From contig NZ_CP120737.1 of the NCBI RefSeq assembly GCF_029581195.1, positions 5,619,001 to 5,683,000 on the forward strand: a stretch of DNA of 64,000 bases. Direction: 5' to 3'. This stretch comes from Solwaraspora sp. WMMD791 (GTDB taxonomy: Bacteria > Actinomycetota > Actinomycetes > Mycobacteriales > Micromonosporaceae). Shown one piece after another: positions 40,922 to 63,292 of the stretch; the first letter of the stretch is position 1, and the number at the start of each line of letters is the position of its first letter. The notes beneath the pieces were generated by a model, which searched no databases, was not told the origin of the DNA, and saw only the letters and a program-made list of their open reading frames with translations. The position numbers and the translations under genes were made by a program.

Positions 40922-42178
40922 ATGCGCGTCCGTACCACGTCGGTGGCCGCCGGGCTGGCCGCCGTGCTCGCACTGGCCGCCGCCGGCTGCGGCAGCAGCG
41001 ACGGCGAACCCGCCACCACCGACAGCCCCGACGCCGCCGCCGGCGGCACCCTGGTGATCTGGGCCGACGACAAGCGCAGCGCCGCCCTCGCCCCGTTCGC
41101 CGAGAAGTTCGGCGCCGACAACGGCGTCACCGTCGAAGTCCAGGCCATCTCCAAGGACCAGCAGACCACCTTCGTCACCGCGTCACAGCAGGGCAGCGGC
41201 CCGGACGTGATGGTCGGCGCGCACGACTGGATCGGCAACCTGGTGCAGAACGGCGCCATCGAGCCCGTCCAGCTCACCGCCGACCAGACCGCCGGCTTCG
41301 CCGAGGTCGCCATCCAAGCGGTCACCTTCAACGGCCAGGTCTACGGCGTCCCGTACGCGATGGAGAACGTCGCCCTGATCCGCAACACCGCGCTCGCCCC
41401 CGACGCCCCCGCCACCATCGAAGAGCTCGTCGCCACCGGCCAGCAGCTCAAAGCTGACGGCAAGGTGTCGGAGATCCTCTGCCTGCAGGTCGGGCAGAAC
41501 GGCGACGCCTACCACCTGTACCCGCTCTACACCTCGGCCGGCGGCAGCCTGTTCGGCACCACCGCCGAAGGCGACTATGACCCGACGCAGCTCGGCGTCG
41601 GCACGCCGGAGTCGATCGCCGCGTTCGAGAAGATCGCCACCCTGGGCGAGAAGGGCTCCGGGGCGCTGAAGCGCTCCATCACCCCGGAGAACTCGATCGC
41701 CACCTTCACCAGCGGCAAGTGCGCCTTCCTGGTCTCCGGGCCGTGGGCGATCACCGACGCCAAGGGCGCCGACATCGCGTACGACATCAGCCCGGTCCCC
41801 GGCTTCGCCGGTGGCGCACCCGCGCAGCCGTTCGTCGGCGTGCAGACCTTCTACGTCGCCGCCAAGGGCACCAACAAGGCCCTCGCTCAGGAGTTCGTCG
41901 CCAACTACACCACCCAGACCGACCTGGCCGTCGCCCTCTACGAGGCCGAGCCGCGCCCGCCGGCGCTGACCGCCGCCCTCGACCAGGTTGCCGGCAGCGA
42001 CCCGGATCTGGCGAAGTTCCAGCAGGCCGGGCAGGGCGGCGCGGTGCTGCCGGCGATCCCCGAGATGGCCGCCATCTGGGACCCGTTCGGCAAGGCCGAG
42101 GCCGCGATCGTCGGCGGTGCCGACGTGGCGAGCACGATGACCGCCGCCGGCAAGACGATCGCCGAACAGATCAAGTAA
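40922..42178 (+). CDS. Maltose/maltodextrin-binding lipoprotein
   Basis: A 418-residue extracellular solute-binding protein. A signal peptide ends in the lipobox LAAAGC (Cys about residue 21), so it is anchored to the outer face of the membrane. The mature part has the MalE-type fold with LVIWADDKRSAALAPFAEKF (about 42), GPDVMVGAHDWIGNLVQNG (about 93) and GPWAITDAKGADI (about 275). It delivers maltodextrins to the permeases encoded next. AGGAG lies seven bases before the ATG. Stop and next start overlap (TAATG). Confidence 0.93.
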   Translation: MRVRTTSVAAGLAAVLALAAAGCGSSDGEPATTDSPDAAAGGTLVIWADDKRSAALAPFAEKFGADNGVTVEVQAISKDQQTTFVTASQQGSGPDVMVGAHDWIGNLVQNGAIEPVQLTADQTAGFAEVAIQAVTFNGQVYGVPYAMENVALIRNTALAPDAPATIEELVATGQQLKADGKVSEILCLQVGQNGDAYHLYPLYTSAGGSLFGTTAEGDYDPTQLGVGTPESIAAFEKIATLGEKGSGALKRSITPENSIATFTSGKCAFLVSGPWAITDAKGADIAYDISPVPGFAGGAPAQPFVGVQTFYVAAKGTNKALAQEFVANYTTQTDLAVALYEAEPRPPALTAALDQVAGSDPDLAKFQQAGQGGAVLPAIPEMAAIWDPFGKAEAAIVGGADVASTMTAAGKTIAEQIK

Positions 42179-43719
42179 TGCGCGACACCGGAGCCGGCGG
42201 TCTGCTGGCCAAGGCGCTGCTGCTCGGCCTGGTCGCGGCGATCGCGATCTGGGCGGCGTTCCCGCTGATCGACGCCGAAGCCTGGGTCGGGCTCGGCATC
42301 CTGGTCGCCACGACCGCCGGCATCGGTTACCTCTACCTCGGTCGGCGACACGTGCCGGCGAAGTACCTGATCCCCGGCACCCTGTTCCTGATCGCCTTCC
42401 AGATCTTCCCGGTGCTCTACACCGCCTCGACCGCGTTCACCAACTTCGGCGACGGACACCGGGGCAGCAAAGCTGAGGCGATCGCGGCCATCCAGGCCAC
42501 GTCGGTGGTCCAGGTCCCAGGATCCATCGAGTACGCGATGACGGTCGCCACGGTCGGCGACCCGGCCACCGGTGACCTGGTGCTGCTGGTCGTCGACCCG
42601 GCCGACGGGGTCGTCTACGCCGGTGACGCCGACGGGTTGACCGAGCTGCCGGCCGGCGACGTCACCGTCACCGACGCCGGCAAGGTGACGTCGGCCGACG
42701 GGTTCACGCTGCTCAACGCCGGCCAGGCCAGCGCCCGCAGCCAGGAGATCACCGACTTGGCGGTGCCGACCGACGGCGGGGCGATCCGCTCCATCGGGCT
42801 GTCGCGGGCGTACGAAGGGGTCGCGGTCCGGGCGTACGACGACGGTTGTGATTGTGTCACCGACACCGTGACGGGCACGGTGTGGACGGCCGACGACGAC
42901 GCCGGCTCGTTCGTCTCCGCCGACGGCGACCGGCTGCTGCAGGGCTGGCGGGTCGGCGTCGGCCTGGACAACTTCACCCGCGTGCTGACCGACCGCAACA
43001 TCTCCGGGCCGTTCCTCGGCACCCTGGTCTGGAACTTCGCCTTCGCGATCGGCTCCACCGGCGGCACGTTCGTCCTCGGGCTGCTCTGCGCCCTGGCGCT
43101 GCACTCCGACCGGGTGCGGGGGCGCAACCTCTACCGGGTGCTGCTGATCCTGCCGTACGCGATGCCGTCGTTCGCGATGCTGCTGGTCTGGCGGGACATG
43201 TTCAACACCGACTTCGGGCTGATCAACCAGTTCTTCGGGTTGACTGTGGACTGGTTCGGGCAGGACTGGTCGGCCCGGCTGGCGGTGATCGGCGTACAGC
43301 TGTGGCTCGGGTACCCGTACATGTTCCTGGTCGCCACCGGCGCGCTGCAGGCCATCCCGAAGGAGCTGACCGAGGCCAGCTCGATCGACGGCGCGAACCC
43401 GTGGCAGGCGTTCCGCCGGGTGACGCTGCCGCTGCTGCTGGTGGCGTTGACGCCGCTGCTGATCGCCTCGTTCGCGTTCAACTTCAACAACTTCAACGCG
43501 ATCTATCTGACGACCGAGGGTGGGCCGTTCCCGGCGGACAACCCGAGCGTCGGCGCGACGGACCTGCTGATCACCTACACGTACCGGTTGGCGTTCGGCG
43601 CGGCCGGCGCCCAGTACGGCTTCGCCGCCGCCATCTCGATCTTCATTTTCACGCTCGTCGCGGTGATCTCCGCGGTCAGCTTCCGGCGCACCCGGCAACA
43701 GGAAGAGGTGTACGGATGA
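42178..43719 (+). CDS. Maltose-type ABC transporter permease (MalF-like)
   Basis: A 513-residue permease with about eight transmembrane helices. Like MalF it has a large external loop (about residues 95-265) between the third and fourth helices, containing a CDC pair (DDGCDCVTD) that may form a disulphide. The EAA loop that contacts the ATPase is EASSIDGANPWQAFRRVTLP (about 400-419). It pairs with the next gene product. No ATPase gene is present; as in streptomycetes a shared MsiK-type ATPase elsewhere may power it (inference). Confidence 0.93.
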   Translation: MRDTGAGGLLAKALLLGLVAAIAIWAAFPLIDAEAWVGLGILVATTAGIGYLYLGRRHVPAKYLIPGTLFLIAFQIFPVLYTASTAFTNFGDGHRGSKAEAIAAIQATSVVQVPGSIEYAMTVATVGDPATGDLVLLVVDPADGVVYAGDADGLTELPAGDVTVTDAGKVTSADGFTLLNAGQASARSQEITDLAVPTDGGAIRSIGLSRAYEGVAVRAYDDGCDCVTDTVTGTVWTADDDAGSFVSADGDRLLQGWRVGVGLDNFTRVLTDRNISGPFLGTLVWNFAFAIGSTGGTFVLGLLCALALHSDRVRGRNLYRVLLILPYAMPSFAMLLVWRDMFNTDFGLINQFFGLTVDWFGQDWSARLAVIGVQLWLGYPYMFLVATGALQAIPKELTEASSIDGANPWQAFRRVTLPLLLVALTPLLIASFAFNFNNFNAIYLTTEGGPFPADNPSVGATDLLITYTYRLAFGAAGAQYGFAAAISIFIFTLVAVISAVSFRRTRQQEEVYG

Positions 43720-44580: not shown

Positions 44581-46479
44581 GTGGGCCAGCTGTTCGAGGC
44601 GCACCATGACGGCTCGTCGTTGTATGCGCCGGGTGCCGCCACCGGGGTAAACCTGGGTGATCGGGTGTCGGTCTTCGTCCGGGTGCCGGCGGGTGCGCGG
44701 CCGGTCGACAACCTGTGGGTACGCTCCACAGCCGACGGTGAGCCGCGCTTCACCGAGGCGGTGGTCGACCGGCAGGATCCGAACGGGGACGTGTGGTGGC
44801 GGGGCGAGGTGGAGGCCCGTAACCCGGTCACGCCGTACCGTTTCCTGCTCGCCGGCGGCGACAGCCCGGCCGGGTCTGCTGGTGGCGGCGGCTCTGCTGG
44901 CGGCGGGGGTGGGCGGCGCTGGTTGACCGGGGTCGGGGAGGTCGACCACGACGTGCCGGACGCCACCGACTTCCGGATCGTCACCCATGATGCGCCGCCG
45001 GCCTGGGCCGCCGACGCGGTGATCTACCAGATCTTCCCGGACCGGTTCGCCCGGTCGGCTGCCGCTGACGGGCGGGAGCTGCCGGAGTGGGCGATCCGGT
45101 GCGACTGGGACACCCCGGTCGTCGGGCGCGGGCCGGAGACGCCGTACCAGTTCTACGGCGGGGACCTGGACGGCATCCGGGAGCGGCTCGACCACCTGGA
45201 GCGGCTCGGCGTCAACACCGTCTACCTGACGCCGATCTTCCCGGCCCGGTCCAATCACCGGTACGACGCCGCCGCGTTCGACCACGTCGACCCGCTGCTC
45301 GGCGGCGACGAGGCCCTGGCGCGGCTGTCGGCGGCGGTGCACGCTCGCGGTTGGCGGCTGCTCGGCGACATCACCAGCAACCACACCGGCGACGCCCACC
45401 CGTGGTTCACCGCCGCCGTGTCGGACGTAACGTCGCCGGAGCGAGAGCTGTACTACTTCGGCGACGACGGCGACTATGAGTCGTGGCTGGGCGTGAAGTC
45501 GCTGCCGAAACTCAACTGGGGCAGCGCTGAGCTGCGGCGACGCTTCGTCGATGGGCCATCCTCGGTGGCGCGGCGGTGGCTGCTGCCGCCGTACGGGTTG
45601 GACGGTTGGCGGATCGACGTGGCCAACATGACCGGCCGGCGCGGTGCCGACGCGCACACGCTGGAGGTGGCCGCCCTGCTGCGCCGGGCGGTCGCCGAGA
45701 CCCGGCCGGACGGGCTGATCGTCGCCGAGCACGGGCACGACTTCACCCGTGACCTGGACGCCGACGGTTGGCACGGCACGATGAACTATGCCGGGTTCAC
45801 CCGGCCGGTGTGGAGCTGGCTGCGGTCATCATCGTTGGAGTTGCCGGACTTCCTCGGCGTACCGGGTGGGGTGCCGGCCCGGTCGGGGCCGGCGGCGTTG
45901 GCGACGATGCGCGCCTTCGGGGCGTTGGTGTCGTGGCGGTCGCTGGTGCATTCGTGGCAGCTGCTCGGCTCGCACGATTCGGCCCGGATCCGGACGGTGG
46001 TCGGGGACGCGGCCCGGCAGGAGGTGGCGGCCGGGTTGCAGTTCACGCTGCCGGGGACGCCGATGGTGTTCGCCGGGGACGAGTTGGGGTTGCGGGGTGA
46101 CAACGGGGAGGGTTCGCGGACGCCGATGCCGTGGGGTCGGCCAGACTCGTGGGACGGGGCGACGTTCGGGGCGTACCGGGCGTTGGTGGCGCTGCGTCGG
46201 GAGGTGCCGGAGCTGCGGCACGGCGGGCTTCGTTGGGTGTACGCCGATGACGACGCCCTGGTCTATCTGCGGGAGTCGCCGACCGGGTCGGTGTTAGCGA
46301 TGGCCCGGCGGGCGTCGGGTGCTCCGGTGCGCCTGACCGGTCTGGCCGCCCCGCCGGACGCTGCTGCTCCGGCACTGGTCAACCTGTACGGCGGCGCACC
46401 ACCGCTGCGCCCGGCCGCTGACGGCACCCTGACCTTGCCAGCCGACGGCCCCACCTTCCAGGTATGGCGCCTCCCCTGA
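44581..46479 (+). CDS. GH13 amylase (neopullulanase/cyclomaltodextrinase type)
   Basis: A 632-residue enzyme with an N-terminal carbohydrate-binding-like domain (about 1-130), a Gly/Ser spacer (residues 97-112) and a GH13 barrel. Catalytic regions: DITSNHTG (about 263), DGWRIDVANM with nucleophile Asp346, AEHGHD with Glu383, and GSHD ending at Asp466. It probably cuts imported maltodextrins inside the cell, as there is no signal peptide. Its last 135 codons plus about 180 bases downstream are duplicated at 48035 and 52671 (see the repeats). It is the last gene of the maltodextrin operon and marks the left edge of the accessory island. Confidence 0.92.
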   Translation: MGQLFEAHHDGSSLYAPGAATGVNLGDRVSVFVRVPAGARPVDNLWVRSTADGEPRFTEAVVDRQDPNGDVWWRGEVEARNPVTPYRFLLAGGDSPAGSAGGGGSAGGGGGRRWLTGVGEVDHDVPDATDFRIVTHDAPPAWAADAVIYQIFPDRFARSAAADGRELPEWAIRCDWDTPVVGRGPETPYQFYGGDLDGIRERLDHLERLGVNTVYLTPIFPARSNHRYDAAAFDHVDPLLGGDEALARLSAAVHARGWRLLGDITSNHTGDAHPWFTAAVSDVTSPERELYYFGDDGDYESWLGVKSLPKLNWGSAELRRRFVDGPSSVARRWLLPPYGLDGWRIDVANMTGRRGADAHTLEVAALLRRAVAETRPDGLIVAEHGHDFTRDLDADGWHGTMNYAGFTRPVWSWLRSSSLELPDFLGVPGGVPARSGPAALATMRAFGALVSWRSLVHSWQLLGSHDSARIRTVVGDAARQEVAAGLQFTLPGTPMVFAGDELGLRGDNGEGSRTPMPWGRPDSWDGATFGAYRALVALRREVPELRHGGLRWVYADDDALVYLRESPTGSVLAMARRASGAPVRLTGLAAPPDAAAPALVNLYGGAPPLRPAADGTLTLPADGPTFQVWRLP

Positions 46480-46661
46480 CGCCACGTTTCTGCTCCTGCA
46501 GACCCATGAGCTGTACATCAGCCACGTCCACACGCGAGTTCAACGTGGCTGACGCACAGCTCAGCACCCGACGGGTGGCAGTGCTGGCAGTCGTCACGCG
46601 GCGACTTGTGCAAGGCAGCCCTTGCAGTCAATTGGACGGGCTAAGTATGCAGATCGCGGCA
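46071..46661 (+). repeat. GH13 3'-end repeat, copy 1 (part of intact gene)
   Basis: From CGCCGGGGACGAGTTGGGG inside the amylase gene (about codon 497) to GCTAAGTATGCAGATCGCGG. The same block, with many substitutions, occurs at 48035-48625, and a more worn copy begins at 52671. All copies point the same way. The block includes the end of the gene and the hairpin 46508-46562. Confidence 0.9.
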
Positions 46662-46836
46662 TGTCAGGACATCTTGCAGGCTTACCTTGACCGGCTGCGC
46701 ACGGTCGTGTAGACGCTGTCGAGGCGACGTGTTCGCCGGGGGCAGGCCCGCACGCCGGGTCGGTTGCGCATCGCCTGGCGGACCCGAGACACGGCGTGGC
46801 CGCCGCACGTTGGCCCTGCGTGAAGCCCGCTGCGAC
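46480..46836. other. Gap after the amylase gene: repeat tail and hairpin
   Basis: No gene is supported here. The first 180 bases are the non-coding tail of repeat copy 1. It contains a large imperfect hairpin (46508-46562) with arms GAGCTGTACATCAGCCACG and CGTGGCTGACGCACAGCTC, a likely terminator of the amylase operon. From 46662 to the RelA/SpoT stop the sequence is unique. Confidence 0.7.
46508..46562 (+). terminator. Repeated hairpin downstream of GH13 (copy 1)
   Basis: Arms of about 19-20 bases with a one-base difference around a 15-base loop. Equivalent hairpins lie at 48470-48524 and about 53098-53153. Copy 2 has compensating-looking changes (CCAGCCAC/GTGGCTGG in place of TCAGCCAC/GTGGCTGA), so the stem has been kept while the sequence drifted. 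Confidence 0.65.
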
Positions 46837-47883
46837 TCAGGCACTTTTAGGCAAACGGCCATCCAGTTGCGTTCGCACGAACTCAGTGAATCGGGCGGTA
46901 TCTGCAAAGTAGTTCGGGTACGCGTCGCGCAGTTGGCTGACGCGCGCGATGTTGATGAGCACCACGTCCAGGTTCTCGTCGTCTAGAGCCTCTAACGCGG
47001 TTAGCCGTGCCTCCGCGTCGGCCAGCGTCTCGTGGACCGTCACGGTAAGCCGCCCCTCGCGCCGAAAGAGCTCAAGGGTCAGGGTGTTCCGGCGGTCCGT
47101 CGTCGCGTGCTCGCCGACGATCGCCGCGTAGCCGCGGAGCCGCCCCAGGACGCCTACGGTCACCTCCAGCCGCGCCAGCTCGTCCGCCAACTCATCGGGA
47201 GTTCCTTCGGCACCGGGTACCGGAGCGGTGCCCTCCTCGTGCGCCATGAGGGACGCGACCAAGACGAAGAACCGGAGCGTGTCTGGGTCGCCCTTCCCGT
47301 ACTTCAACTCGCTGCCCGAGAAAAGGTCCATCGTCTCGACTGCGGTCGCCCAGGCGTGCTGCAACTGCGTGCGCACCTGCAGTTCGATCCGCAGGCCGTG
47401 GTACTCCTTCTTGGAGGCCCCGTACTCGTAGACCAAGTGGACGCCTCGGTAGCCGGAGTTCCGAGGCCCCGGGTCATCGCGCAGATAGTCGTAGACTTTC
47501 TTCACGCGGTTCCTGCTCCTTGGCAGGTCCGCCAAGATGTCAATTAACTTGTCCACTTCGGCGACCGACTCGAAGACCACCCTGCAGCCCCCGAGGTCCT
47601 GCATGGTAGTCACGCTCATCGTGGGATGGCGCTTGAGCTTGTCGATGATCGTGGGGAGGCGTTTCCGACGCTCGGCCACGACGGCGTTTTGGTTCACGCC
47701 GAGCGCGCGCTGGCGTACGGTCACGGTGACGGCGTTCAAGGGAAACGCGTGGGCGAGGCGGTAATTGCTGAGGACTTCCCGAGCTGCCCGAATCTCCTCA
47801 GACGTTCCAGTCCCCTTGCCGATCACCCGGCTCGCCCGCTGGACGGCCTTGTTGGAGTGCTCGGGCACCACCCACTTCTTCAT
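46837..47883 (-). CDS. RelA/SpoT-domain alarmone synthetase (possible toxSAS-type defence protein)
   Basis: A 348-residue protein with only the pyrophosphotransferase domain; no HD hydrolase, TGS or ACT domain. Catalytic features are RRKRLPTIIDKLKR (residues 72-85), DLGGCRVVF (96-104), GYRGVH with the substrate-stacking Tyr (144-149) and ELQVRTQLQHAWA (167-179). A helical C-terminal half follows. Single-domain synthetases in islands can be toxins that modify nucleotides or tRNA ends and act against phage; whether this one does is inference. TACGGT lies seven bases before the ATG, giving a leaderless start. No separate antitoxin gene is seen. Confidence 0.85.
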   Translation of the reverse strand: MKKWVVPEHSNKAVQRASRVIGKGTGTSEEIRAAREVLSNYRLAHAFPLNAVTVTVRQRALGVNQNAVVAERRKRLPTIIDKLKRHPTMSVTTMQDLGGCRVVFESVAEVDKLIDILADLPRSRNRVKKVYDYLRDDPGPRNSGYRGVHLVYEYGASKKEYHGLRIELQVRTQLQHAWATAVETMDLFSGSELKYGKGDPDTLRFFVLVASLMAHEEGTAPVPGAEGTPDELADELARLEVTVGVLGRLRGYAAIVGEHATTDRRNTLTLELFRREGRLTVTVHETLADAEARLTALEALDDENLDVVLINIARVSQLRDAYPNYFADTARFTEFVRTQLDGRLPKSA

Positions 47884-47992
47884 GGCCTCGACCGTACCTA
47901 ACCCCGCTCCGACGCTTCCACCGAGTTCCCCCTGCGTCCCGGGCGGTCCCGCGAGCCCCGAGTCGCGTCGGTCTGGCGCTGTGGACGAACGC

Positions 47993-48034
47993 ACATCAAG
48001 CAGAACAGTGCAGCGCAGTGGACGTGCGCCCTCC
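47993..48034 (+). repeat. Module boundary sequence, copy at the left of GH13 repeat 2
   Basis: CATCAAGCAGAACAGTGCAG through CGCAGTGGACGTGCGCCCTCC directly precedes GH13 repeat copy 2. A close match (GTGCAGCGCAGTGGACG, CGCCCTC) precedes repeat copy 3 at 52632-52670. It is not present before the same point in the intact amylase gene, so it marks the end of each inserted unit. Confidence 0.7.
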
Positions 48035-48625
48035 CGCCGGGGATGAGTTGGGGTTGCGGGGGAGAACGGGGAGGGTTCGCGGACGCCGATGCCGTGGGAT
48101 CGGCCGGGTTCGTGGGATGGGGCGACGTTCGGGGTGTATCGGGCGTTGGTGGCGTTGCGTTGGGAGGTGCCGGAGCTGCGGCACGGCGGCCTTCGCTGGG
48201 TGTACGTCGATGACGATGCCCTGGTCTATCTGCGGGAGTCGCCGTCCGGTTCGGTGTTGGCGTTGGCCCGGCGTGCGTCGGGTGCTCCGGTGCGGTTGTC
48301 GGGCCTGGTGGCTTCGCCGGACGCTGCTGCTCCGGCGCTGGTAAACCTGTACGGCGGCGCGCCGCCGCTACGCCCGGCCGCTGACGGCAGCCTGACCCTG
48401 CCGGCCGCCGACCCCACCTTCCAACTTTGGCGCCTTCCCTGACGCGCTGAGCTGCCACGGCAAAACCATGAGCTGTACGCCAGCCACGTCCACAGGCGAG
48501 GTCGAGGTGGCTGGCGTATGGCTCAGCACCGACGTGTGGCACAGCGGCTGACCGTCGTCACGAGGCGACTCTTGCAGGCAGCCCTTGAAGTCAATCTGGA
48601 TAGGCTAAGTATGCAGATCGCGGCA
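48035..48625 (+). pseudogene. GH13 3'-end repeat, copy 2 (amylase C-terminal fragment)
   Basis: Reads the last 135 codons of the amylase plus the downstream tail. A one-base deletion near 48064 (GGGAGAAC against GGTGACAAC) breaks the frame, after which the amylase frame is open from 48089 to a normal stop at 48442 (MPWDRPGSWDGATFGVYRAL to FQLWRLP). Not expected to be expressed as an enzyme. The deletion is shared with copy 3. Confidence 0.88.
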
Positions 48626-48868
48626 GATGCGGATACCGACGACAACGCCATGATCTGTGACATGGATCTTCGTTGATCGCCCTGGCTCACCGTTGTACCT
48701 ACGCCGAGGATCGGTGGCATGGCTCTCGCGCCGGCGTTCGTGTCGCCTTGTGGTGGACGGCGTTGCGTACCGGTGGACGTTCCGCCGCAAGCCGACCTAT
48801 TCCGAGGGTTTTGCTGAGTCGCTGCTATCCCATTCGCAGAATGTAGATCATGAAAGTGGAAGCTCCGG
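48443..48868. other. Gap between amylase fragment 2 and the NTPase gene
   Basis: The left part is the repeat tail with its hairpin (48470-48524), ending at about 48625. The right part contains a probable gene remnant (48657-48872). Nothing else is seen. Confidence 0.6.
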
Positions 48869-48872
48869 CTAG
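48657..48872 (+). pseudogene. Remnant of a small actinobacterial hypothetical gene
   Basis: A 71-codon frame with RRSCRLVVDGVAYRWTFRRK near its middle, which resembles the start of short actinobacterial proteins of the type RLVVDG-YRW-RRKP, from memory. After PTYSEG the similarity fades and the frame runs into the end of the NTPase gene. I read it as a decayed fragment. Confidence 0.35.
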
Positions 48873-51800
48873 AAACCGCCGCGCACCCGTTGTTTGCGCT
48901 CCCTGCGCAACGCATCGTCACGCTTTTCGGTGTACATGGCGATACCGGCCCTTCCCATGGCCGCGACGTTGGGATCGTCGGCTTTCGCGTAATCCGCAAA
49001 CTGCTTTAGGTGCTTGGCGGCGCGCTCAGAGTCCTCGCCCCACTGCACGCCACACTCTGCGAGGGACGCGAGGGCATCTGGCGCTACGCCCCGCGGAATT
49101 AGAAGCTTGGCCAGGTCGACGATTGAGGGCTCGGACGGCCCAAGTCCGTCGTGTGTGTTTAACGCTTCATCAGGCGTGATTAGATCGGCGTCAAGCGCTT
49201 CTTCGATCCACCCGAGGTCGTCTCCTGGCATGTAGCGCAACAGAAACCATCGTAGTCTGCGGTTGCCTCCGAACTCCCGCATAATCCTGGTCTTGCCGGC
49301 GCGGTCGAGAAGGTGCAGGCCCTGAGCCGCCTCGTCGGGGCTTCCAAAACGATCACGGTCTACAACTTTCCGAAGCTGGCGCTTCATGCACGCAACAAGC
49401 ACCGAAGGATACCGTTTGCCGAGAAATTTGAAGAGCGCACCAAGCTGGTGGTCCGAGATCCCCGGAATTATCGACGAGTCAAACTGCTGGATAGCTGCCA
49501 ACCATTCGTCTTCAACTTCTGGGTTCCAATCCTCGGTGTCGTCATCATGGATTGGCCGCGCTAGCGCAAAGGCAAACGCGCTGCGCGTTTCTGCGCTGGC
49601 AGCGGTGAGAAGATTGCGTTGGGTCGTCACAGATAGCTTGTGGTTGAATACAAGTCCTTCGAGAACGGGATAGTCACTCGGGCTGAGCGCGGCGAGCACA
49701 TTGCTCAGAATTGGTTCAGGCATCTGCGTAGACAAGACTGAACGCAGTACCGGCCAGCGCGCAGCCGTGTCGGCCAGGCATCTGCCTAGCAGATCCACCG
49801 ACAGCGAACTGCCGCTAGCTGCACAAGCTTCCAGAAAGGGCTCGGCATCGGGGAATAGGCCATAGGCGAGTGCCGCTTCCACCCATGTCTCAGGATCTCG
49901 GATTTGTTCGGCGATGGCAACGCACGCCCAAAGAATGCGACTTGGCCAGGTCACCCTTGCGATGTCGAGTTGCAGCCGAATGTCAACGAGTCGTTGCACG
50001 ACCGTCCCGGCGTCCTCGTTGGCCCACGTTCGGACGAGCTGCTTGACCAAATTGTGCACGGCATCTAGGGACCTCCGAAAGTCCCTGCCACGCTCAACAT
50101 CGACATAGAACGCGGCCCGCTCGATTGGCATTTGTAGCCCGAGGTCAGGTGCGTGTCGTGAGGCCCATCTGGCCAGGTATACGGTGAGGCCGTCTGATCC
50201 CGAAACAAGCGGAGCTAACTCCCTAAGTAGCTTGATGCCCCAATGGCGTGCAGCCTTGATAGAGGGTTCGGAGTGGCTTCCGCCGAAGGGCCGGTCGTAG
50301 CCGTCGCCAATACGAAGCCATTCAGTGGCGACGTCGATTACCTCACGCACAACGTAGGGGCGGTCTGCGGAGATCCCTGACCTGATATGGGGCCATACCG
50401 TTTCGTAAATCTCGCGAATTTGGTCAGCGCTAACAACAGCTTCCATCATGTGCACTCGACGTCGGTCTGCGGCATCTACCCAGCGACCGCTGATGCGTAT
50501 CGAAAGTGCATGCGCTGAGACCGCGCCATACACCCGCCATGCTGCTGCGTCCTCACGTCCCCTGATCCATGCGCTACCGACCTCCGCAGCTACCGCGCGG
50601 ATCTCGTGTCGCGGCGCGAGGTCGGGGTGTTGATTCTTAATAGCGTCCTCAAGTTCGCGAAGCGGATGCTGCGAATATTGGTTGGTCGGGCGCTCGTCGA
50701 ATCGGGCCAGATCAAGCAAGAGTTGTATGGCCTCGCGCATGCAGTATCGCTTGGTTATCAGCGCGGCAAGGCCGCAAATTCCCTCAACCTGCCTTGGGTC
50801 GACAGCGCCTTGCGCTTGAATTTCGTCAAAATCCGCTCGGGCCCATGCGATCACCTCTCTCGCAGAGTGGACATCAACGCAGGCGTACTTGTTAGCCAGG
50901 TGTGTTATGCCCCTTGTGGTGCCAAAGTCGCCATCTCGATAGCGATGCACGAGCTGCCGCGCGAAGGGTTTTGCTTGCGCCACGCCAAGAAGTGCGCTCT
51001 CAATAGCTGCCTCGGTAATCTGGGGTATGTGATCGGGCCAGTTCTTTATAAGGTCAGTCAAGTCCACTGGGACCTCTGATCGGAATGCATGTTCCGCTAC
51101 CAGTGCGCGGGCGAGCATCGGGGGCCGAACGTCGTATCGCCGCTGTCCATCAAACGTATCGGAAACGTCTAGGATCCCGCTGCGCGCCGTTCGCTCAAGC
51201 AATATTCGCATACTGGGCGCCGATATGCCGAGGGTATGAGCCATAGCCGGAAGCTCGCCGATAGTGATTCCGCCCAGAGCGGCTATTCTTGTCAGGAGGT
51301 CAGTTGCTTCGTCCGCGACGTGGGCCTTGTGTAGATACGATTCTACCTTCCCAAGGAGCACTCTGCCATCGAGCAGTGAACTCCATTGGTTAGTCTTGGT
51401 CAGCATGTCCGCAAGCGCCACGGCCCAGCCCGGACGGCCTTCTGCCTGGTCAAGAATCTCGTGCCGGGCAAGCTGGCTTCGAATCCCCATGCCGATGATC
51501 ACTCGATCGACATGCTGTCGCTCCATAAGCTCGACGGGGATAATAGTGCATGAAATGAGGGAATCCTGAACCAATTTGAGCTCGTCTGGCCAGCAGACGC
51601 AAATGAGCCTATAAGTGAGCAGATCGTAATTTGATCGGCGTAGCTTAACTAACTGCCGTACCAAATCGAGGTTATTGCCACAGTCGTCAACTATCAAGCA
51701 TTCGGGGGTGAGCCACATTAGATCATCTCCGAGGCTCTGCCGGGCTGCCATGTCAGTGTCAACGAAGAGTGCGCGAGGGAGTGCTGCCGCAAGTCGTGTT

Positions 51801-52423
51801 TTTCCGACACCTGGAGGGCCAACGAGAATGGTGTCCTCGGCGCTTGACTGCAACAAGTCGAGTTCAGAGTCCCGACCCACGAGCGGTAAGGAAGCCCAGG
51901 GGCTCTCGGCGATGTCGGGCGGCGATTTGGAGAGTGCGATCGGTTCACCGGGCAGGTTGAGCAGCGCCTTCCGCCACTCTCCGTCTCGGCGGAGCCTGCT
52001 CGCGAAATATCCTCTGTCGTGAAACGCCTCGATCGCGAGGCCCGACTTTTTCGCCGTGTCTCTTAGTTTCTGCCGCTGTGTCTCATTCAATATTGCCGGA
52101 TTCGCTAACACTAGCCGCTCAACTGGGACGCTGTTATCCCGGAGACTTCTTATTCCTCCGACCATATTTTTGCGAACGCCTTCGACGGACCGTGCCGATG
52201 TCACAACAAGGCGTGGGGGTATGGCGTCGCCTGTTCCATGAATATCTGCATCTCGACCCGAATCTGTACCTCCGCGGATCGGCGACAGGCCCGGATAAAC
52301 CTCGATCAGCATGTCGGTGGCGCAACGCTCGAATAGATCAGGGTCCAGGCGCTTCGTAGCAAGCGCGTGCTCAATTCTGTCAAGGTCGTGCATACCGCTG
52401 GCTGAAGAGAACCCTGCGCTCAT
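48869..52423 (-). CDS. Large STAND-type NTPase with restriction-endonuclease-like N-terminus (probable defence protein)
   Basis: A 1184-residue protein. Residues about 15-140 look like a PD-(D/E)xK nuclease: FERCATDMLIEVYPG, GGTDSGRDADIH (acidic residues 54-60), then LVVTSARS where a catalytic ExK or QxK is expected but Lys is replaced by Arg. The P-loop NTPase follows: Walker A GPPGVGKT (202-209), Walker B CLIVDD (242-247). About 850 residues of helical repeats make the rest, the usual sensor part of STAND proteins. This layout resembles Avs-type phage sensors. TAAGCT lies seven bases before the ATG at 52423, chosen over an upstream ATG at 52504. Lower GC than the flanks. Confidence 0.8.
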   Translation of the reverse strand: MSAGFSSASGMHDLDRIEHALATKRLDPDLFERCATDMLIEVYPGLSPIRGGTDSGRDADIHGTGDAIPPRLVVTSARSVEGVRKNMVGGIRSLRDNSVPVERLVLANPAILNETQRQKLRDTAKKSGLAIEAFHDRGYFASRLRRDGEWRKALLNLPGEPIALSKSPPDIAESPWASLPLVGRDSELDLLQSSAEDTILVGPPGVGKTRLAAALPRALFVDTDMAARQSLGDDLMWLTPECLIVDDCGNNLDLVRQLVKLRRSNYDLLTYRLICVCWPDELKLVQDSLISCTIIPVELMERQHVDRVIIGMGIRSQLARHEILDQAEGRPGWAVALADMLTKTNQWSSLLDGRVLLGKVESYLHKAHVADEATDLLTRIAALGGITIGELPAMAHTLGISAPSMRILLERTARSGILDVSDTFDGQRRYDVRPPMLARALVAEHAFRSEVPVDLTDLIKNWPDHIPQITEAAIESALLGVAQAKPFARQLVHRYRDGDFGTTRGITHLANKYACVDVHSAREVIAWARADFDEIQAQGAVDPRQVEGICGLAALITKRYCMREAIQLLLDLARFDERPTNQYSQHPLRELEDAIKNQHPDLAPRHEIRAVAAEVGSAWIRGREDAAAWRVYGAVSAHALSIRISGRWVDAADRRRVHMMEAVVSADQIREIYETVWPHIRSGISADRPYVVREVIDVATEWLRIGDGYDRPFGGSHSEPSIKAARHWGIKLLRELAPLVSGSDGLTVYLARWASRHAPDLGLQMPIERAAFYVDVERGRDFRRSLDAVHNLVKQLVRTWANEDAGTVVQRLVDIRLQLDIARVTWPSRILWACVAIAEQIRDPETWVEAALAYGLFPDAEPFLEACAASGSSLSVDLLGRCLADTAARWPVLRSVLSTQMPEPILSNVLAALSPSDYPVLEGLVFNHKLSVTTQRNLLTAASAETRSAFAFALARPIHDDDTEDWNPEVEDEWLAAIQQFDSSIIPGISDHQLGALFKFLGKRYPSVLVACMKRQLRKVVDRDRFGSPDEAAQGLHLLDRAGKTRIMREFGGNRRLRWFLLRYMPGDDLGWIEEALDADLITPDEALNTHDGLGPSEPSIVDLAKLLIPRGVAPDALASLAECGVQWGEDSERAAKHLKQFADYAKADDPNVAAMGRAGIAMYTEKRDDALRRERKQRVRGGF

Positions 52424-52631
52424 GGGTCGCAGCTTATCGTACTGTCTTTTTCTGACTGCGGGCCCGCGATGCCGGTACGCGAGGCGTCGCCTGTACCACC
52501 TCATCTTCAGGGAGCGACACGAATGCCGCGCCAGCCTTCGGCAGTACCCAGCCGCCGAACGCCATGATCGTTTGGGTACTGGCTCCTGCGACCTGGGAGT
52601 ACACCCCCAGTGGCAAGATCAGGTGTACTGT

Positions 52632-52670
52632 CATCGGCTAGAAGGGTGCAGCGCAGTGGACGCGCCCTCT
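52632..52670 (+). repeat. Module boundary sequence, copy at the left of GH13 repeat 3
   Basis: CATCGGCTAGAAGGGTGCAG followed by CGCAGTGGACGCGCCCTCT, matching the boundary at 47993-48034 with a two-base gap. It joins the NTPase module to GH13 repeat copy 3. Confidence 0.7.
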
Positions 52671-53157
52671 CGCCGGTGACGAGATCGGGTTGCGGGGGAG
52701 AACGGGGTGGGTTCGCGGACGCCGATGCCGTGGGACCGGCCGTGCTTCTGGGATGGGGCGATATTCGGGGTGTATCGGGCGTTGGTGGCGTTGCGTTGGG
52801 AAGTGCCGGAGTTGCCGCACAGCGGGCTGCGTTGGGTGTACGCCGATGACGACGCCCTGGTCTATCTGCGGGAGTCGGCGTCCGGGTCGGTGTTGGCGCT
52901 GGCCCGGCATACGTCGGGTGCCCGGTGCGCCTGACCGGCCTGGTCGCCCCGCCGTCCGCTGCTGCTCCGGCACGCGCCAACCTGTTACGGTGGCGCACCA
53001 CCGCTGCGCCCTGACCGTGCCGGCCGCCGCCCACCGGCCTCAACCTTTCGACCCTGGCACCTCGCCTGACCCACGCCCTGCCCGGCGATGTCGAGAGGTG
53101 TACGCCAACCACATCCACCTGCGAGTCAGAGGTGGCTTGCGTGCAGTTCAGCAGAAA
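52671..53157 (+). pseudogene. GH13 3'-end repeat, copy 3 (degenerate)
   Basis: The most worn copy. It shares the frame-breaking deletion of copy 2, keeps an amylase-like frame at 52707-52934 (MPWDRPCFWDGAIFGVYRAL), then loses it at GCCCGGTGCGCC and has deletions in the last 100 coding bases. The tail keeps a recognisable hairpin (about 53098-53153). It shares Val and Trp residues (FGVYRALVALRWEVPE) with copy 2 and not with the intact gene. Confidence 0.82.
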
Positions 53158-53243: not shown

Positions 53244-54416
53244 CTATGGCGTGCTCGCGAAACCTGCCCGACGATATGCGAAGACACGAAACATGGGCAA
53301 GGTAAAGCGGGCCGTCGGATCAGTTGCATCACGGGAAAGGCTTTCTGAAATCGTCTTCCAATCACTTTGGCTTAGATTACAATAGAGTCTTACGTGTTCC
53401 ACGGAGGTCCGCACTTGTTCGGCTAAGAGTGCGCGGATCCGTTGATCGGGATTTGACTCTATTGGCTCACTGAAGCCTTCGATCCGCGACAACCGCGCCA
53501 GAGCTGCAATCGCTTCAATCTCGCGATGTACCTTCGCATACCGTCCCCCTGTGGCTGTAAAGAATAACAGGACGCCGCCTAGTGTCAGGGAATGCGCCAG
53601 GTCCACGAGCTCCCTTCGAAAGGTATTCGCCATTCCGACGGTGGTGAGAAAATTTGAAACAAATATAAGATCATATGCACTAGGTATCTGTGCTGGATGC
53701 GAGTAAGCTTCCCGCCAAGCTTCCTTTGGGTCGATGTACTCATCTGCATCGTCATAATCACGGATGATCGAGTCTCTGATTGCTCTCCGATGTCCGTGAT
53801 GCCGTTCATGAGCTGAGAATCCCGTGAAGTTTTTGAAACTACGACTAAAAGGAAGGGCGTGCCATCCAATCGGTGGCGCGCGATGAACCATTAGCTGTTC
53901 CGAGAAGTTGTGAATGATGGTGTCCCACGCTATGCCCCGATCCAAGGGGTGGATTGTTGCCCTGCCAAATTCATGCTGATCACCCACCGTGCTGCTCCAA
54001 TCTGCCAGATTGTTGTAGAAGTCGAACGCGGCAAAGGAGCTCGGAGCCGGTCCAGATCCGATGTCAAGAACAGCTATGCGTTGCCGGCGGAGGGGCACCC
54101 ATCCAAGCTTCAGTAGTCGTTGTAAGACCTGGCCCGCGCGCCCATAGCGGTCCGCAAAATGGAGGATAAAATAGGCGAGCCCTGACTCGATATCCGAAAA
54201 GTCGAGATCATCACAACGTCTGAGCGCGTCAGGAAGCCTGGACGCAAGAAGGGAGCGGTTAGCCCGACCGGCAAGCATGTCGAACGTGGCAATTACGCTA
54301 TCGCATACCGACTTCATTTGGATTGTATCTAGGCCCGTGCTGCGGTACCAAGAAAGATGCTCGTCAGCGTTCGCGGTCTGCCATTGGCGAGCTGACGAGC
54401 CAGGTCGATTCATCAT
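53244..54416 (-). CDS. SAM-dependent methyltransferase-like protein in the island
   Basis: A 390-residue protein with a helical N-terminal region (1-110) and a Rossmann methyltransferase core: motif I IAVLDIGSGPAPSSFAAFDF (113-132), an AYDLIFVSNFLTTV segment (about 249) in the place of motif IV, and GGVLLFFTATGG (about 282) near motif V. The substrate is unknown. An HERHHGHRR patch (about 204-212) is striking. It lies next to the DUF4209 gene on the same strand, after the third GH13 repeat. Two ATG codons in tandem start the frame (54416, 54413). Codon use is far less GC-biased than the flanks. Confidence 0.75.
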   Translation of the reverse strand: MMNRPGSSARQWQTANADEHLSWYRSTGLDTIQMKSVCDSVIATFDMLAGRANRSLLASRLPDALRRCDDLDFSDIESGLAYFILHFADRYGRAGQVLQRLLKLGWVPLRRQRIAVLDIGSGPAPSSFAAFDFYNNLADWSSTVGDQHEFGRATIHPLDRGIAWDTIIHNFSEQLMVHRAPPIGWHALPFSRSFKNFTGFSAHERHHGHRRAIRDSIIRDYDDADEYIDPKEAWREAYSHPAQIPSAYDLIFVSNFLTTVGMANTFRRELVDLAHSLTLGGVLLFFTATGGRYAKVHREIEAIAALARLSRIEGFSEPIESNPDQRIRALLAEQVRTSVEHVRLYCNLSQSDWKTISESLSRDATDPTARFTLPMFRVFAYRRAGFASTP

Positions 54417-54802: not shown

Positions 54803-56689
54803 TCAGACTCTCTCTTTTCCCTCCTGTGTGTGCTCCCTGGGTCCCAGGTTTTTCTGTATGTCGGCCTCCGAGGAGAAATAGGGCAGGAGTACCAGGTAGA
54901 GACATATCCACCAAGCGTAGATGGCTGCGGCGCTCCAGGACTGCGGGTCGTTGAGTAGTCCGTGAGCCAGGTCATTCCGAAGGTTCGGCCCGAGTTGCTC
55001 GCAGAGCAACGCGCGTAGCTCAAGGGTCAAGCTCGGCCCAAACGCGCGAACTGCCTCCGGCATTGCCAGCAGTGCGTTCAAGCTCTTCTCGGATTCCACG
55101 CCGCGCTCGTCCACGATCAATGTGTAGGCACCTCGGGCTCTCAGGAAAGCTCGCGCCATCTGCTCGACCTGCGGGACAAGCACCGAGATGGCTGACGGGA
55201 AATCACCAGACAGTCCGTGCCATAGTCCTCGCGCCCACAGATAAACGTGACCTTGCGGGACAACAAGCGATTCGTGGCAAATCTCGGCTAGGAAGTCGAG
55301 ATCGAAGCGATGTTCGAACGTCAGCACCTCGAATGCAGGACTGATCAGGGCCTGTACAAGAAGATCGACCCGCCAGGAGAACGAACGGACCACCTCGGCA
55401 AAAACCGCCGTGTCGGATAAGCCCTCAGCGCCGATCCCTCCTCGAGCGGCCACTTTGCGCCCATCGGTGCTGAAAGTGGAGGAGCTGAACAGGCGAAGAA
55501 TACTACTTTGTAGGTGATTACGTGCATCAGTTGTGGCAGCTGTGGCGTCGATCAATGGTGTTAGGTTAACGAATGCTTTGAGCGCATCGATTCGACTCTT
55601 TCCTGAGACCGAAACTCGCGCAAGTTGGATATATCGAGCAATGTTGACTGACTCTGACTCGATTCGATGCATCTGCTCTAGCGCCATCGTGCGGACCTCG
55701 GTGAGGCGGTCGCGGAGGTCCTGTAGGAGGTTGTCAAGGCCATGCGCGGATCGGTATGCGCGAGGAATTTTGCGTACCACGGCGATAGCCTTCTCAAGAA
55801 ACGTGCCGGCTACGAGGGCGCTGTTGTCTCGTGCCAGACGTTCGTTCGCCTCATCGATGTACGCCCGTGCTATTCGTTCAACGCAGGCGTTAGCAAGCTC
55901 ATTCTCGCGAAGGCGTCCGTACCAGGTGGCGGCTTCGCGCTCGTATGCGCGCCTTAGCCTGTGATCTCCGGACAGTGTAGCGGCAACCGATGCGAGATGA
56001 TCGGCTAGGTCACGGGCTGCGGTTTTCTCGATGGCTCCAGTCGTTCCCAGCAAATCAGAGACCCCGATCGCCATGTAAGCCGCAGAGCTGTCGCTACCGA
56101 GGAGAAAGCCGAGAAGGGTTGCAGCCATCTCGCTCGTTGCGATCCGGCCCTGCTTTCCGCGACGCAAAGATAACTCTATTGCTCGCCGCCAACTGTCGCG
56201 GCCAGTGGCGTTCCAACAACTTGGGGTTAATGGTAGGGAGCGGTAGCTATCCACAGCTGCCGTCAGCATCTCCATGTTGCTGCGATCGCCATACGTCCAC
56301 ACAACGTCGGCCACCCGCGCTTTGAGGGTCGGCTCACCGATCAGGGGGACAATTCTACCCAGCAACTCAAGATCTGAGCCGCTTAGATCGCTCGGGATGA
56401 CAGTCCGCTCATTCCCAAACTGCATGGCGGGTGCAAATGGTTCTCCCCAATTGTCGGCAACGAGCATCGCCGAGGTCGCCTTGCACAAAACGTCGAGAAC
56501 CCTAACCTTGAGGCTTCCTTCGCTGACTGCTGCTTCGGCCTCCGACCTTAGTTTGTCAAGCTTAATCGAGATCAACATCGGTTCGAGGAAACCGCAGGGC
56601 ACATCATCGTCATCCAAAATGGCGGGCCGCCACCAGGACGCGTCTATCGACTCGCCACCGCCTTCATCGTTTATTGCTGTACTGGTCAC
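54803..56689 (-). CDS. DUF4209 protein with HEPN-like RNxxxHG motif
   Basis: A 628-residue, mostly helical protein. The C-terminal DUF4209 motif RNxxxHG reads RNDLAHG (571-577), preceded by LRALLCEQLGPNL and followed by a hydrophobic WWICLYLVLL helix. The Arg-x4-His spacing is that of HEPN RNases, so an RNA-cleaving abortive-infection activity is possible, but not shown. The first 550 residues have no recognised domain. GTG 56689 is the start; no strong ribosome site is seen. It is the last island gene before GC content rises again. A defence role is inferred from motif and company. Confidence 0.75.
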   Translation of the reverse strand: MTSTAINDEGGGESIDASWWRPAILDDDDVPCGFLEPMLISIKLDKLRSEAEAAVSEGSLKVRVLDVLCKATSAMLVADNWGEPFAPAMQFGNERTVIPSDLSGSDLELLGRIVPLIGEPTLKARVADVVWTYGDRSNMEMLTAAVDSYRSLPLTPSCWNATGRDSWRRAIELSLRRGKQGRIATSEMAATLLGFLLGSDSSAAYMAIGVSDLLGTTGAIEKTAARDLADHLASVAATLSGDHRLRRAYEREAATWYGRLRENELANACVERIARAYIDEANERLARDNSALVAGTFLEKAIAVVRKIPRAYRSAHGLDNLLQDLRDRLTEVRTMALEQMHRIESESVNIARYIQLARVSVSGKSRIDALKAFVNLTPLIDATAATTDARNHLQSSILRLFSSSTFSTDGRKVAARGGIGAEGLSDTAVFAEVVRSFSWRVDLLVQALISPAFEVLTFEHRFDLDFLAEICHESLVVPQGHVYLWARGLWHGLSGDFPSAISVLVPQVEQMARAFLRARGAYTLIVDERGVESEKSLNALLAMPEAVRAFGPSLTLELRALLCEQLGPNLRNDLAHGLLNDPQSWSAAAIYAWWICLYLVLLPYFSSEADIQKNLGPREHTQEGKERV

Positions 56690-56907: not shown

Positions 56908-57153
56908 CTAGCTAGCGGTCCGGGGTTCCTTTGGCACGAAGACACCGAGTCCCTGGTGGCCGTACAGCTCGCCGGTCTCGATCAGGATCGTGATGGCCTG
57001 ACGGACGGTCGACTGGCTCCTGACCTCGTAGAGGTCGGCCAGCTCCCGGGTTGACGGCAGCCGGTGTCCTGGCGGCCACTCGCCGGAGGCGATGCGCTGC
57101 CGGATGTCGGCGATGATGCGGCGGTAGTGCGGCTCGAACTGACGTGCGGGCAT
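56908..57153 (-). CDS. Small GntR-type winged-helix regulator
   Basis: An 81-residue protein made only of the GntR DNA-binding domain: YRRIIADIRQRIASGEWPPG, LPSTRELADLYEVRSQSTVRQAI and a wing with GLGVFV. There is no effector domain, as in many small regulators of actinobacterial accessory operons. It faces away from the operon at 57632, and a palindrome TTACCGAC-AAC-GTCGGTAA in between is its likely operator. Confidence 0.88.
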   Translation of the reverse strand: MPARQFEPHYRRIIADIRQRIASGEWPPGHRLPSTRELADLYEVRSQSTVRQAITILIETGELYGHQGLGVFVPKEPRTAS

Positions 57154-57246: not shown

Positions 57247-57631
57247 GGGCGACGGTTCCCCCCAGCTAGGCACTGCGGGAGACCCGCCGGGGTGGCGTCG
57301 ATCCCGTGGAGCGGCGCTCAGCTGCTCCTTCGACGATCGGCGCTACCCCGGCGATCCCCATCGACGCCCCGGCCGAGCCGGTGCACGCGGCACTGTCGGC
57401 CACTGCACGCAACCCAGGAGGAATCCCGATCTTCGGCGTTCGGCGGAACGTGAGCCGCCGAGATGCCCGTACCAGCGGCCCTGCGGGCGTACCGCCGTTT
57501 GTGGCTGCGTGCGCAGGGCGGGCGGCCCGACCTCCGCGCCCCCGTTCGGGGTCGGGCCGCCCATCCCACCTTCCCCACCGAACCGCGATGTAGCGGCGAT
57601 CCCGTGACCTATTGGAAGGGCGGTCCCACCC
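57247..57631 (+). other. Long leader of the DivIVA/GPP34 operon with hairpin
   Basis: About 380 bases between the promoter and the first well supported gene. Open frames exist here (for example 57306-57593) but none is convincing. A perfect 13-bp hairpin with arms 57520-57532 and 57550-57562 (GGGCGGCCCGACC and its complement) could act as a terminator or attenuator. Confidence 0.5.
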
Positions 57632-58045
57632 GTGCGCAGACTTCTCGACCTTGTCCTGTTCCCTCGGCGTACCCGGCGGCAGGCCCGGCTGCTCGCCAGC
57701 CTCGCCAACCAGACCCGGCCGCCGGCCCGGCCACCCGCCGCTGCTGCTGGCGGCGGGTCGCGTCCGCCGGCCCGGCGCGGCGGCAACGCCGGCACCCACC
57801 TCTACTACGGCGCCAGCGTGGTGCGGCCGTCGATCAGCCCCGGGCTGGTCCGCGACCGCCGGTTCCCGGTCCGCACCCGGCGCGGTTGCGACCCGACCGA
57901 GGTACGCGCCTTCCTGCACCTGGTCGCCGACGAGTTGACGGCGGTGCGGGCCGAGTTGGCGGCCACCCGGGACGAGAACGTGCGGATCAAGCAGGCGTTG
58001 CGGGACTGGCAGTCGCAGCAGTTCCAGGCCCGGCCGGTCGGTTGA
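57632..58045 (+). CDS. DivIVA-domain protein
   Basis: A 137-residue protein. After an Arg/Pro-rich N-terminus (1-70) comes a DivIVA-type membrane-curvature motif, FPVRTRRGCDPTEVRAFLHLVADEL (about 82-106), leading into a coiled coil (VRAELAATRDENVRIKQALRDWQSQ). DivIVA relatives mark poles and septa in actinobacteria, but this short form with a basic N-terminus is of unknown role. Starts with GTG; GGAAGGG lies upstream. First gene of a four-gene operon. Confidence 0.75.
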   Translation: MRRLLDLVLFPRRTRRQARLLASLANQTRPPARPPAAAAGGGSRPPARRGGNAGTHLYYGASVVRPSISPGLVRDRRFPVRTRRGCDPTEVRAFLHLVADELTAVRAELAATRDENVRIKQALRDWQSQQFQARPVG

Positions 58046-58079
58046 GCACAGTAGGCGATGTAGGGAGAGGGGTGCGTTG

Positions 58080-58358
58080 ATGCTGGATGTGGTGCTCGCC
58101 GCCACCATCGCGGTGCTGGTCGGCGCGGTGGTCGGGTTCAGTCTGTGTCGGCATCGGCACCGCTGGTGTCCCGGCTGCGGCCGTACCCTGACCTGCCCGG
58201 CATGTCCGACCGGCGGGCTGCTGCCCGCGCAGGTCGAGGCGGCCGGGCGTCGGTGGGCGCCGCAACCGGCGCGGACCGTGACCCTGCGGCGGACCTGGGT
58301 GTGGCCCGGCCGGACCTGGGTGTGGCCCGGCCGGACCCGGCGGCGGGCCGGCCGGTGA
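58080..58358 (+). CDS. Small membrane protein with zinc-ribbon cysteines
   Basis: A 92-residue protein with one N-terminal transmembrane helix (VVLAATIAVLVGAVVGF) and a CPGCGRTLTCPAC cysteine set (about 30-42) that could bind zinc. A WVWPGRT repeat lies near the C-terminus, from a 15-base direct repeat. GGGAGAGGGG precedes the ATG. Its stop overlaps the next GTG by four bases. Confidence 0.6.
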   Translation: MLDVVLAATIAVLVGAVVGFSLCRHRHRWCPGCGRTLTCPACPTGGLLPAQVEAAGRRWAPQPARTVTLRRTWVWPGRTWVWPGRTRRRAGR

Positions 58359-58612
58359 CCGCGCGGGTGGTGGCGGTGGTGGGCCGGGTCGGGCATGTGG
58401 CGTGGCGTCCGTCGTGGCGGTGCCGGGCCTGCCGCCGGCCGTGGCCGTGCGAACCGGCCCGCGCGGAGCTGATGGCGAGCTTCGACCGGATCGGCCGCTG
58501 CATGTACGTCGCCGAACTCGCCGCCGAAGCCGCCCGTGACCTGCCCGGCCTGACCCCGGCGCAGACGTACGCGCGGTTCATCGCGTGGGCGCGGCGGCGG
58601 GAGCCGGCATGA
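58355..58612 (+). CDS. Small hypothetical protein with WxCxxCxxPWPC motif
   Basis: An 85-residue protein, VTARVVAVVGRVGHVAWRPS at the start, then WRCRACRRPWPCEPAR (about residues 21-36) with three cysteines, then a helical end. Proteins with this H-x-n-W-C-C-PWPC pattern are common in actinobacteria beside GntR and DivIVA-like genes, function unknown. Four-base overlaps with both neighbours (GTGA and ATGA) support translation. Confidence 0.65.
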   Translation: MTARVVAVVGRVGHVAWRPSWRCRACRRPWPCEPARAELMASFDRIGRCMYVAELAAEAARDLPGLTPAQTYARFIAWARRREPA

Positions 58613-63259: not shown

Positions 63260-63292
63260 CGGCGCCTCCTCCCTGGGAAACAGGCGTGGTTA

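Follow-up and report, generated by a model that had tools for sequence, protein, structure and literature searches.

In a 64,000-nt stretch of the genome of Solwaraspora sp. WMMD791 (positions 5,619,001–5,683,000 of its single 6.93-Mb contig; hereafter, the window), the 3′-end of a GH13 gene occurred three times in the same direction, with accessory genes behind each copy. The two copies beyond the working gene were displaced gene ends, and displaced ends of a second, neighboring gene, GPP34, were observed in related genomes. The genes between GH13 and GPP34 differed in every genome of the genus that was compared. The explanation that we consider probable is that incoming DNA anchored homologously in the 3′-end of a gene, joined illegitimately at its other end, and later spread by ordinary homologous recombination. 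More tentatively, the locus may represent a general mode of defense-island growth without a recombinase, in which the traveling gene 3′-end would be both anchor and repair patch, and in which displaced ends would become new homology arms, with two neighboring genes forming a self-reinforcing knock-in site.

The anchors, the repeat copies, and their borders are given below in window positions. Identities refer to copy 1, as do the ratios of the proportions of non-synonymous and synonymous differences (pN/pS).

44581–46479, + strand: GH13 gene, maltodextrin glucosidase-like, 632 aa (Pfam Alpha-amylase, 6.1e-45); left anchor, 3′-end repeated
46071–46661, + strand: copy 1, the working GH13 end (46071–46479) and approximately 182 nt downstream
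46508–46562: hairpin 3′ of GH13, imperfect inverted repeat GAGCTGTACATCAGCCACGT ... ACGTGGCTGACGCACAGCTC, read from the sequence
47994–48034, + strand: extension (t) to the left of copy 2, shared with copy 3
48035–48625, + strand: copy 2, displaced GH13 end, 86% identity, 1-nt deletion at GH13 nt 1514, pN/pS 0.23
52632–52670, + strand: extension (t) to the left of copy 3, shared with copy 2
52671–53153, + strand: copy 3, old displaced GH13 end, decayed, 80% identity, pN/pS 0.65
57260–59334, + strand: conserved block that bounds the interval on the right; its last gene is GPP34 (58609–59334)
59335–63385: second variable interval, bounded on its far side by a conserved 165-aa gene (63389–63886)

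The repeat unit consisted of 409 nt of GH13 coding sequence (136 codons including the stop) and approximately 182 nt of downstream DNA with the hairpin. Three same-direction copies of approximately 590 bp at 46071, 48035, and 52671 had been reported in an earlier reading of the window (the original prediction), and their coordinates, direction, and alignment were borne out. When copy 1 was compared with the whole contig (E ≤ 0.001), only three matches were obtained: itself, an 86% match over 590 nt, and an 80% match over its first 496 nt. As a control, 40 other 20-kb stretches of the same genome were searched, and six had a direct repeat of at least 150 nt with a spacing of more than 600 nt. 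Five of these repeats had 65–76% identity, and the sixth, with 82–85% identity, was a pair of full-length paralogous genes. None of the six stretches resembled a gene-end array, the five with low identity having been examined for open frames only.

The locus was compared in seven genomes of the genus, each another species (G000, the genome of the window, to G006). GH13 and the conserved block ending in GPP34 were found in the same order in all seven, 10.8–23.8 kb apart. The intervals between them were all different; in pairwise comparison, their common parts were gene ends, insertion sequence (IS) genes, a repeated regulator segment, and some blocks of up to approximately 3 kb. Displaced GH13 ends were present in five of the seven genomes: G000 and G005 each had two (one of those in G005 being a remnant), and G001 (a remnant), G004, and G006 each had one. 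None was found in G002. The original prediction, in which interchangeable, largely defense-like modules form an array that grows at a metabolic gene's 3′-end, agrees with this different occupancy in each congener. A fixed gene order in close relatives, which would speak against it, was not the case within the genus, and an empty site was not seen.

Outside the genus, no displaced GH13 end was found at the threshold used in 80 loci, of which 70 extended 8.9 kb or more downstream, and short decayed copies of 70–77% identity could escape that threshold. Gene order was compared in 35 outside loci. The same three-gene block, preceded by no more than three optional genes, followed GH13 in 28 of the 30 Micromonospora and Plantactinospora loci; the contigs of the remaining two ended too early. 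The five Actinoplanes-type loci had other neighbors.

Two further kinds of repeat were noted at the locus in the congeners. The GH13 gene of G003 had an internal 196-nt tandem duplication (nt 1308–1687; 98% identity), by which the frame was lost and the gene apparently broken; its breakpoint, at approximately nt 1492–1503, was near a recurrent junction at nt 1491. A second repeat family of approximately 410–740 nt comprised the start and upstream region of a gene for an XRE/TPR-type regulator of 416–501 aa (G001, G005, G003, and G002). These repeats, one to three per locus, were mostly 92–98% identical between genomes (87% in one pair). In G001, the repeat edge was approximately 30 nt from the remnant of the old GH13 end, and a similar arrangement in G005 was interrupted by an IS gene.

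Young displaced GH13 ends differed from the working gene of the same genome mostly at synonymous sites. The pN/pS was 0.19 in G004 (15 synonymous and 7 non-synonymous differences), 0.21 in G005 (only 4 and 2), and 0.23 for copy 2 of G000 (29 and 17). Among the 21 pairs of working GH13 tails, it was 0.26 (range, 0.13–0.42; the tail of G003 was counted although the gene has its break upstream of it). The young displaced ends thus showed the same constraint as orthologs. Because their differences were mostly synonymous, whereas decay after duplication would ignore codon position, the sequence comparison indicates that they were imported and not duplicated and then decayed. Copy 3 of G000 and the copy of G006 (pN/pS, 0.65 and 0.48) look like old pseudogenes. 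In G000 and in G004, the two GH13 ends differed as much as ends of different species. The ends in G000 followed an order of age, the newest by the gene and the oldest and most decayed farthest from it.

In G005, the working and displaced ends had 1 mismatch (at the junction) in approximately 806 nt, then 6 in 148 nt, and then unrelated 3′ flanks. The change point was placed at nt 1701 in the numbering of the G005 gene (log-likelihood ratio, 8.6; Fisher P = 8e-5, with the split chosen on the data). This pattern is consistent with a homologous crossover near nt 1700 and a foreign origin of the sequence past that point. Copies 2 and 3 of G000 alone share t, the deletion at nt 1514, and 1618T. Copy 2 had no private change in nt 1491–1673; beyond that region, 8 of its 10 private changes were at third codon positions, compared with 7 of 23 in copy 3 (P = 0.02). 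These data fit a chimeric copy 2, its left part derived from an older displaced end and its right part from a working gene, as would be expected if later imports use displaced ends as homology arms.

GPP34 was the second anchor. Displaced GPP34 3′-ends were found in G002 (from nt 294), G003 (from nt 176), and G005 (nt 265–583), and a 74-nt GPP34 remnant was located inside the first (GH13–GPP34) interval of G006. The conserved 165-aa gene was present in six of the seven genomes and absent from G005, within the DNA compared. Compared with the GPP34 gene of their own genome, the displaced ends had a pN/pS of 0.27 (G002), 0.23 (G003), and 0.25 (G005), close to the 0.275 of the 21 working pairs. 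When all seven working genes were the reference, pN/pS was 0.38, 0.26, and 0.27, respectively. The same block followed the displaced ends of G002 and G003 (87.5% identity over 658 nt), and the displaced end of G005 directly adjoined a later part of this block. Because the following block is common yet the breakpoints differ, old GPP34 ends and their old neighbors were pushed outward, the simplest account being one event for each. The 500 nt immediately 3′ of the working GPP34 genes of G002 and G003 were partly alike (score, 118; shuffles, ≤19.5), so the imports in these two genomes may be related.

Under the explanation that we favor, the 3′-ends of GH13 and GPP34 would be the landing points for foreign DNA. 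A donor piece from another lineage would begin inside the same gene, pass the stop codon into cargo, and undergo homologous recombination in the gene. The join at its other end would be illegitimate, by microhomology or end-joining, and would often fall in the copy of the gene that the recipient already had. The incoming piece would bring a complete working 3′-end, so that the gene would survive, and the former end of the recipient gene, together with all that lay behind it, would be pushed outward as a scar. Each further round would stack a new module next to the gene, so that the most decayed, oldest end would come to lie farthest from it. Gene body, cargo, and displaced end would then resemble a two-arm targeting construct, by which modules could move between strains by homologous recombination. 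A homologous anchor at one junction is indicated by imported ends that are continuous with the recipient gene and, in G005 only, by a change point. At the other junction, the varying sites and the little homology at them point to illegitimate joining; one such junction recurs in three copies.

The junctions also bear on other explanations. Seven breakpoint types were distinguished. Those in GH13 were at nt 895 (G005 numbering; 946 in that of G000), approximately 1225 (G005; approximately 1276), 1383 (G004; 1377), and 1491, and those in GPP34 were at nt 176, 265, and 294. No common motif was found at these seven types (mean best 14-nt match, 9.5; null, 9.8; 85 of 100 null draws at or above the observed value), and microhomologies at the junctions were short, as judged by eye. 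The edges of the repeats were not clearly sharp, alignment scores dropping to shuffle level beyond them. The original prediction had taken the repeats for attachment site-like boundaries of excisable elements, which seven breakpoint types without a motif do not bear out; the repeats are better read as imported ends and displaced old ends. Two edges were nevertheless shared. The extension t, approximately 40 nt to the left of the core, is common to copies 2 and 3, is not part of GH13, and was joined to nt 1491 in both copies and in G006, beside three different cargoes. A 21-nt part of t (≤3 mismatches) occurred in the seven genomes only at copies 2 and 3 and once in G006. The alignment score of t between copies 2 and 3 (22.5) equaled the best of 200 shuffles (22.5); the scores of both copies against G006 were above the shuffles (26 vs. 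15.5 and 20 vs. 17.5). The fixed position next to the core is a better argument for t than its alignment score. A common 3′ edge, GGCTAAGTATGCAGATCGCGG, was found in copies 1 and 2 of G000 and, with 1 mismatch, in G006, and 21-nt parts of both shared edges (≤3 mismatches) occurred at this locus only in the seven genomes. These edges would be accounted for by site-specific integrative elements that bring a substitute gene end and whose recombinase was lost or acts in trans; t beside a constant core with different cargoes is the best point for such elements. However, they would have to accommodate seven breakpoint types in two genes without a shared motif or a constant attachment core, and displaced GH13 ends that span 409 to approximately 955 nt. 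Moreover, no integrase was found in the 49 cargo genes scanned with Pfam among the 72 predicted in the GH13–GPP34 interval, and recombinases elsewhere in the genome were not searched for; the earlier remark that no recombinase is visible holds for these 49 genes. We regard such elements as a rather improbable source of the array.

The recurrent junction of t at nt 1491 could also be that of a single circle, if non-replicating circles with a captured gene 3′-end and cargo integrated by a single homologous crossover to leave a working gene with a foreign end, cargo, and a displaced end. These end products would be identical to those of one-sided anchoring, and circular intermediates have been proposed for Rhs tips (PMC2935791). 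However, the arm of a G005 circle would have to be the same as the recipient for 806 nt and 4% different from it thereafter, and many different circle junctions would be needed, which makes circle integration an unlikely candidate. Tandem duplication in one lineage, by slippage or IS action, with differential cargo loss and decay thereafter, could draw on the internal duplication in the G003 GH13 gene and on the IS genes present. It is very improbable: the pN/pS of young displaced ends, which for both GH13 and GPP34 was that of working orthologs, largely refutes duplication followed by decay, the end pairs of G000 and G004 differ like different species, and cargo differs between units.

Several observations weigh against one-sided anchoring with later spread. 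One junction, t at nt 1491, is found in three displaced ends, in two species and with three cargoes, which would require later spread and cargo turnover. A change point was detected in only one of the three young pairs, that of G005, and in neither G004 nor G000. The 1761C shared by copies 2 and 3 of G000 lies inside the part of copy 2 that the chimera would derive from a working gene. The displaced GPP34 end of G002 had a pN/pS of 0.38, not 0.27, against all seven working genes. No empty site was found in the seven genomes, the shortest interval being 10.8 kb. The Pfam scan covered 49 of the 72 cargo genes counted in the first 20 kb per locus, and the interval of G002 runs past that stretch. 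Synonymous divergence was higher in the 3′ part of GH13 in all 15 pairs (ratio, 1.69), but the same ratio was 1.28 in Micromonospora (1.41 in close pairs). Raised tail divergence was discarded as proof of import, being weak since Micromonospora shows part of it (2.0 vs. 1.5).

The cargo of the window comprised the following genes, all on the opposite strand to GH13.

46837–47994, − strand: CapRel-like RelA/SpoT effector, cargo of module 1 (Pfam RelA_SpoT, 1.9e-14; PADLOC PDC-S33, 1.3e-106; PDB 7ztb, 7.7e-40; start at 47871 in our own gene finder)
48869–52504, − strand: STAND-type NTPase of up to 1211 aa, module 2 cargo (AAA_16, 6.1e-05, and AAA_24, 8.3e-05, both below cut-off; start at 52393 in our own gene finder)
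53244–54416, − strand: 390-aa gene without a matched family (earlier label, methyltransferase)
54803–56689, − strand: DUF7380/DUF4209 protein (PADLOC PDC-S39, 1.2e-189)
56908–57153, − strand: 81-aa GntR-type regulator adjoining the right border

PADLOC scans covered 20 proteins; PDC in the names of its models we take to stand for phage-defense candidate. Of the earlier gene labels, RelA/SpoT and DUF4209 stood, STAND stood on the sub-threshold AAA matches, and methyltransferase did not, no family being found for that gene. CapRel was defined by a toxic alarmone-synthetase-like domain fused to a C-terminal antitoxin domain. Residues 45–378 of the RelA/SpoT protein aligned by sequence to chain positions 14–371 of 7ztb (E = 7.7e-40), the entry for CapRelSJ46 (PMC9712102). 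Relatives of this protein were found in 2 of 250 genomes of the family, its own genome counted, and in none of the six other congeners. The STAND-type protein had no PADLOC, NCBIfam, or close PDB match. Its relatives occurred in 4 of the 250 genomes, again with its own counted and none in the six other congeners; one, in G124, was related at 45%. A GGTDSGRDADI-like motif was noted by eye at its N-terminus, and we presume it to be nuclease-like. The protein is possibly an Avs-like defense protein not yet listed.

By family match, the cargo of the congeners included a QatABCD set in G006; PDC-M30A/B, partial GajA- and GajB-like matches, and a NACHT-type protein (NNH7) in G004; an OLD-type protein in G003; an Abi_C protein in G001; and a Cap4-type nuclease in G002. 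Five IS-type transposases were among the Pfam-scanned genes. Other cargo was not obviously defensive, namely a PadR regulator in G005 and glycosyltransferase, MFS transporter, and desaturase genes in G002. With its clustered known or candidate defense genes, the interval qualifies as a defense island at the level of family matches, and its cargo may serve defense. The single main minus-strand effector per module that had been described was seen in the window and not in the relatives, where the Qat genes of G006 lie on the GH13 strand.

Around the array, the GH13 protein also matched the NCBIfam maltodextrin glucosidase model (4.9e-118, below the model cut-off), and a MalF-type transporter gene was located upstream (41719–43719). 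The GC content fell from approximately 0.72 within GH13 to 0.54–0.68 across 46.5–57 kb. The hairpin region had relatives at a few other places in G002 and G003 and is perhaps a small repeated palindromic element or a terminator. The only tRNA found in the window, a tRNA-Gln (ttg) at 23894–23966, was far from the array.

How variable loci grow, many of them without integrases, was described as not settled for the data of one survey (PMC5635113). At the present locus, the scars of additions can be read and dated, since displaced ends give the order of additions, the divergence of donors, and, once, the position of the crossover. They also provide a searchable signature, namely the 3′-end of a conserved gene repeated downstream with an orthologue-like pN/pS. 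No paper on displaced ends at housekeeping genes was found in the literature search, nor any precedent that we recognized as closer than the systems discussed below. A process known from toxin loci would thereby be extended to ordinary genes with phage-defense-like cargo.

Several known systems are comparable in part. Integrative elements that regenerate a gene 3′-end are known from icd (e14 and phage 21). In these elements, too, inserted DNA brings the missing gene end; in contrast, the present array has longer arms and no fixed core, and no recombinase was found in the 49 of 72 cargo genes scanned. At Rhs loci, as described by Jackson et al. (2009; PMC2935791), a foreign gene 3′-end, the C-terminal tip, displaces the resident one, and a foreign end takes the place of the resident end here as well. 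The new Rhs end alters the protein C-terminus, whereas here the same enzyme is restored and the novelty is separate cargo behind ordinary genes. Nor are the anchors toxin genes with a variable C-terminus, as in tip arrays of Rhs or contact-dependent inhibition systems; they are GH13 and GPP34, the ends of which could be aligned in all seven genomes. For effector-immunity arrays of the Vibrio type VI secretion system, homology-facilitated illegitimate recombination has been proposed to explain stacked immunity genes (PMC5361080). The likeness lies in a homologous anchor on one side, an illegitimate join on the other, and sequential displacement with the newest unit next to the anchor; in that account the effector locus itself is exchanged, whereas here a catabolic GH13 gene and GPP34 anchor defense-like cargo. 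The 2017 description of hotspots without mobile-element genes, with recombination in flanking core genes (PMC5635113), likewise concerns accessory regions between fixed genes, many without mobile-element genes, with flanking-gene recombination, and differs in that the additions at the present locus leave displaced gene ends within the array. What appears to be new here is the use of ordinary genes as anchors, restored to the same function and followed by defense-like cargo.

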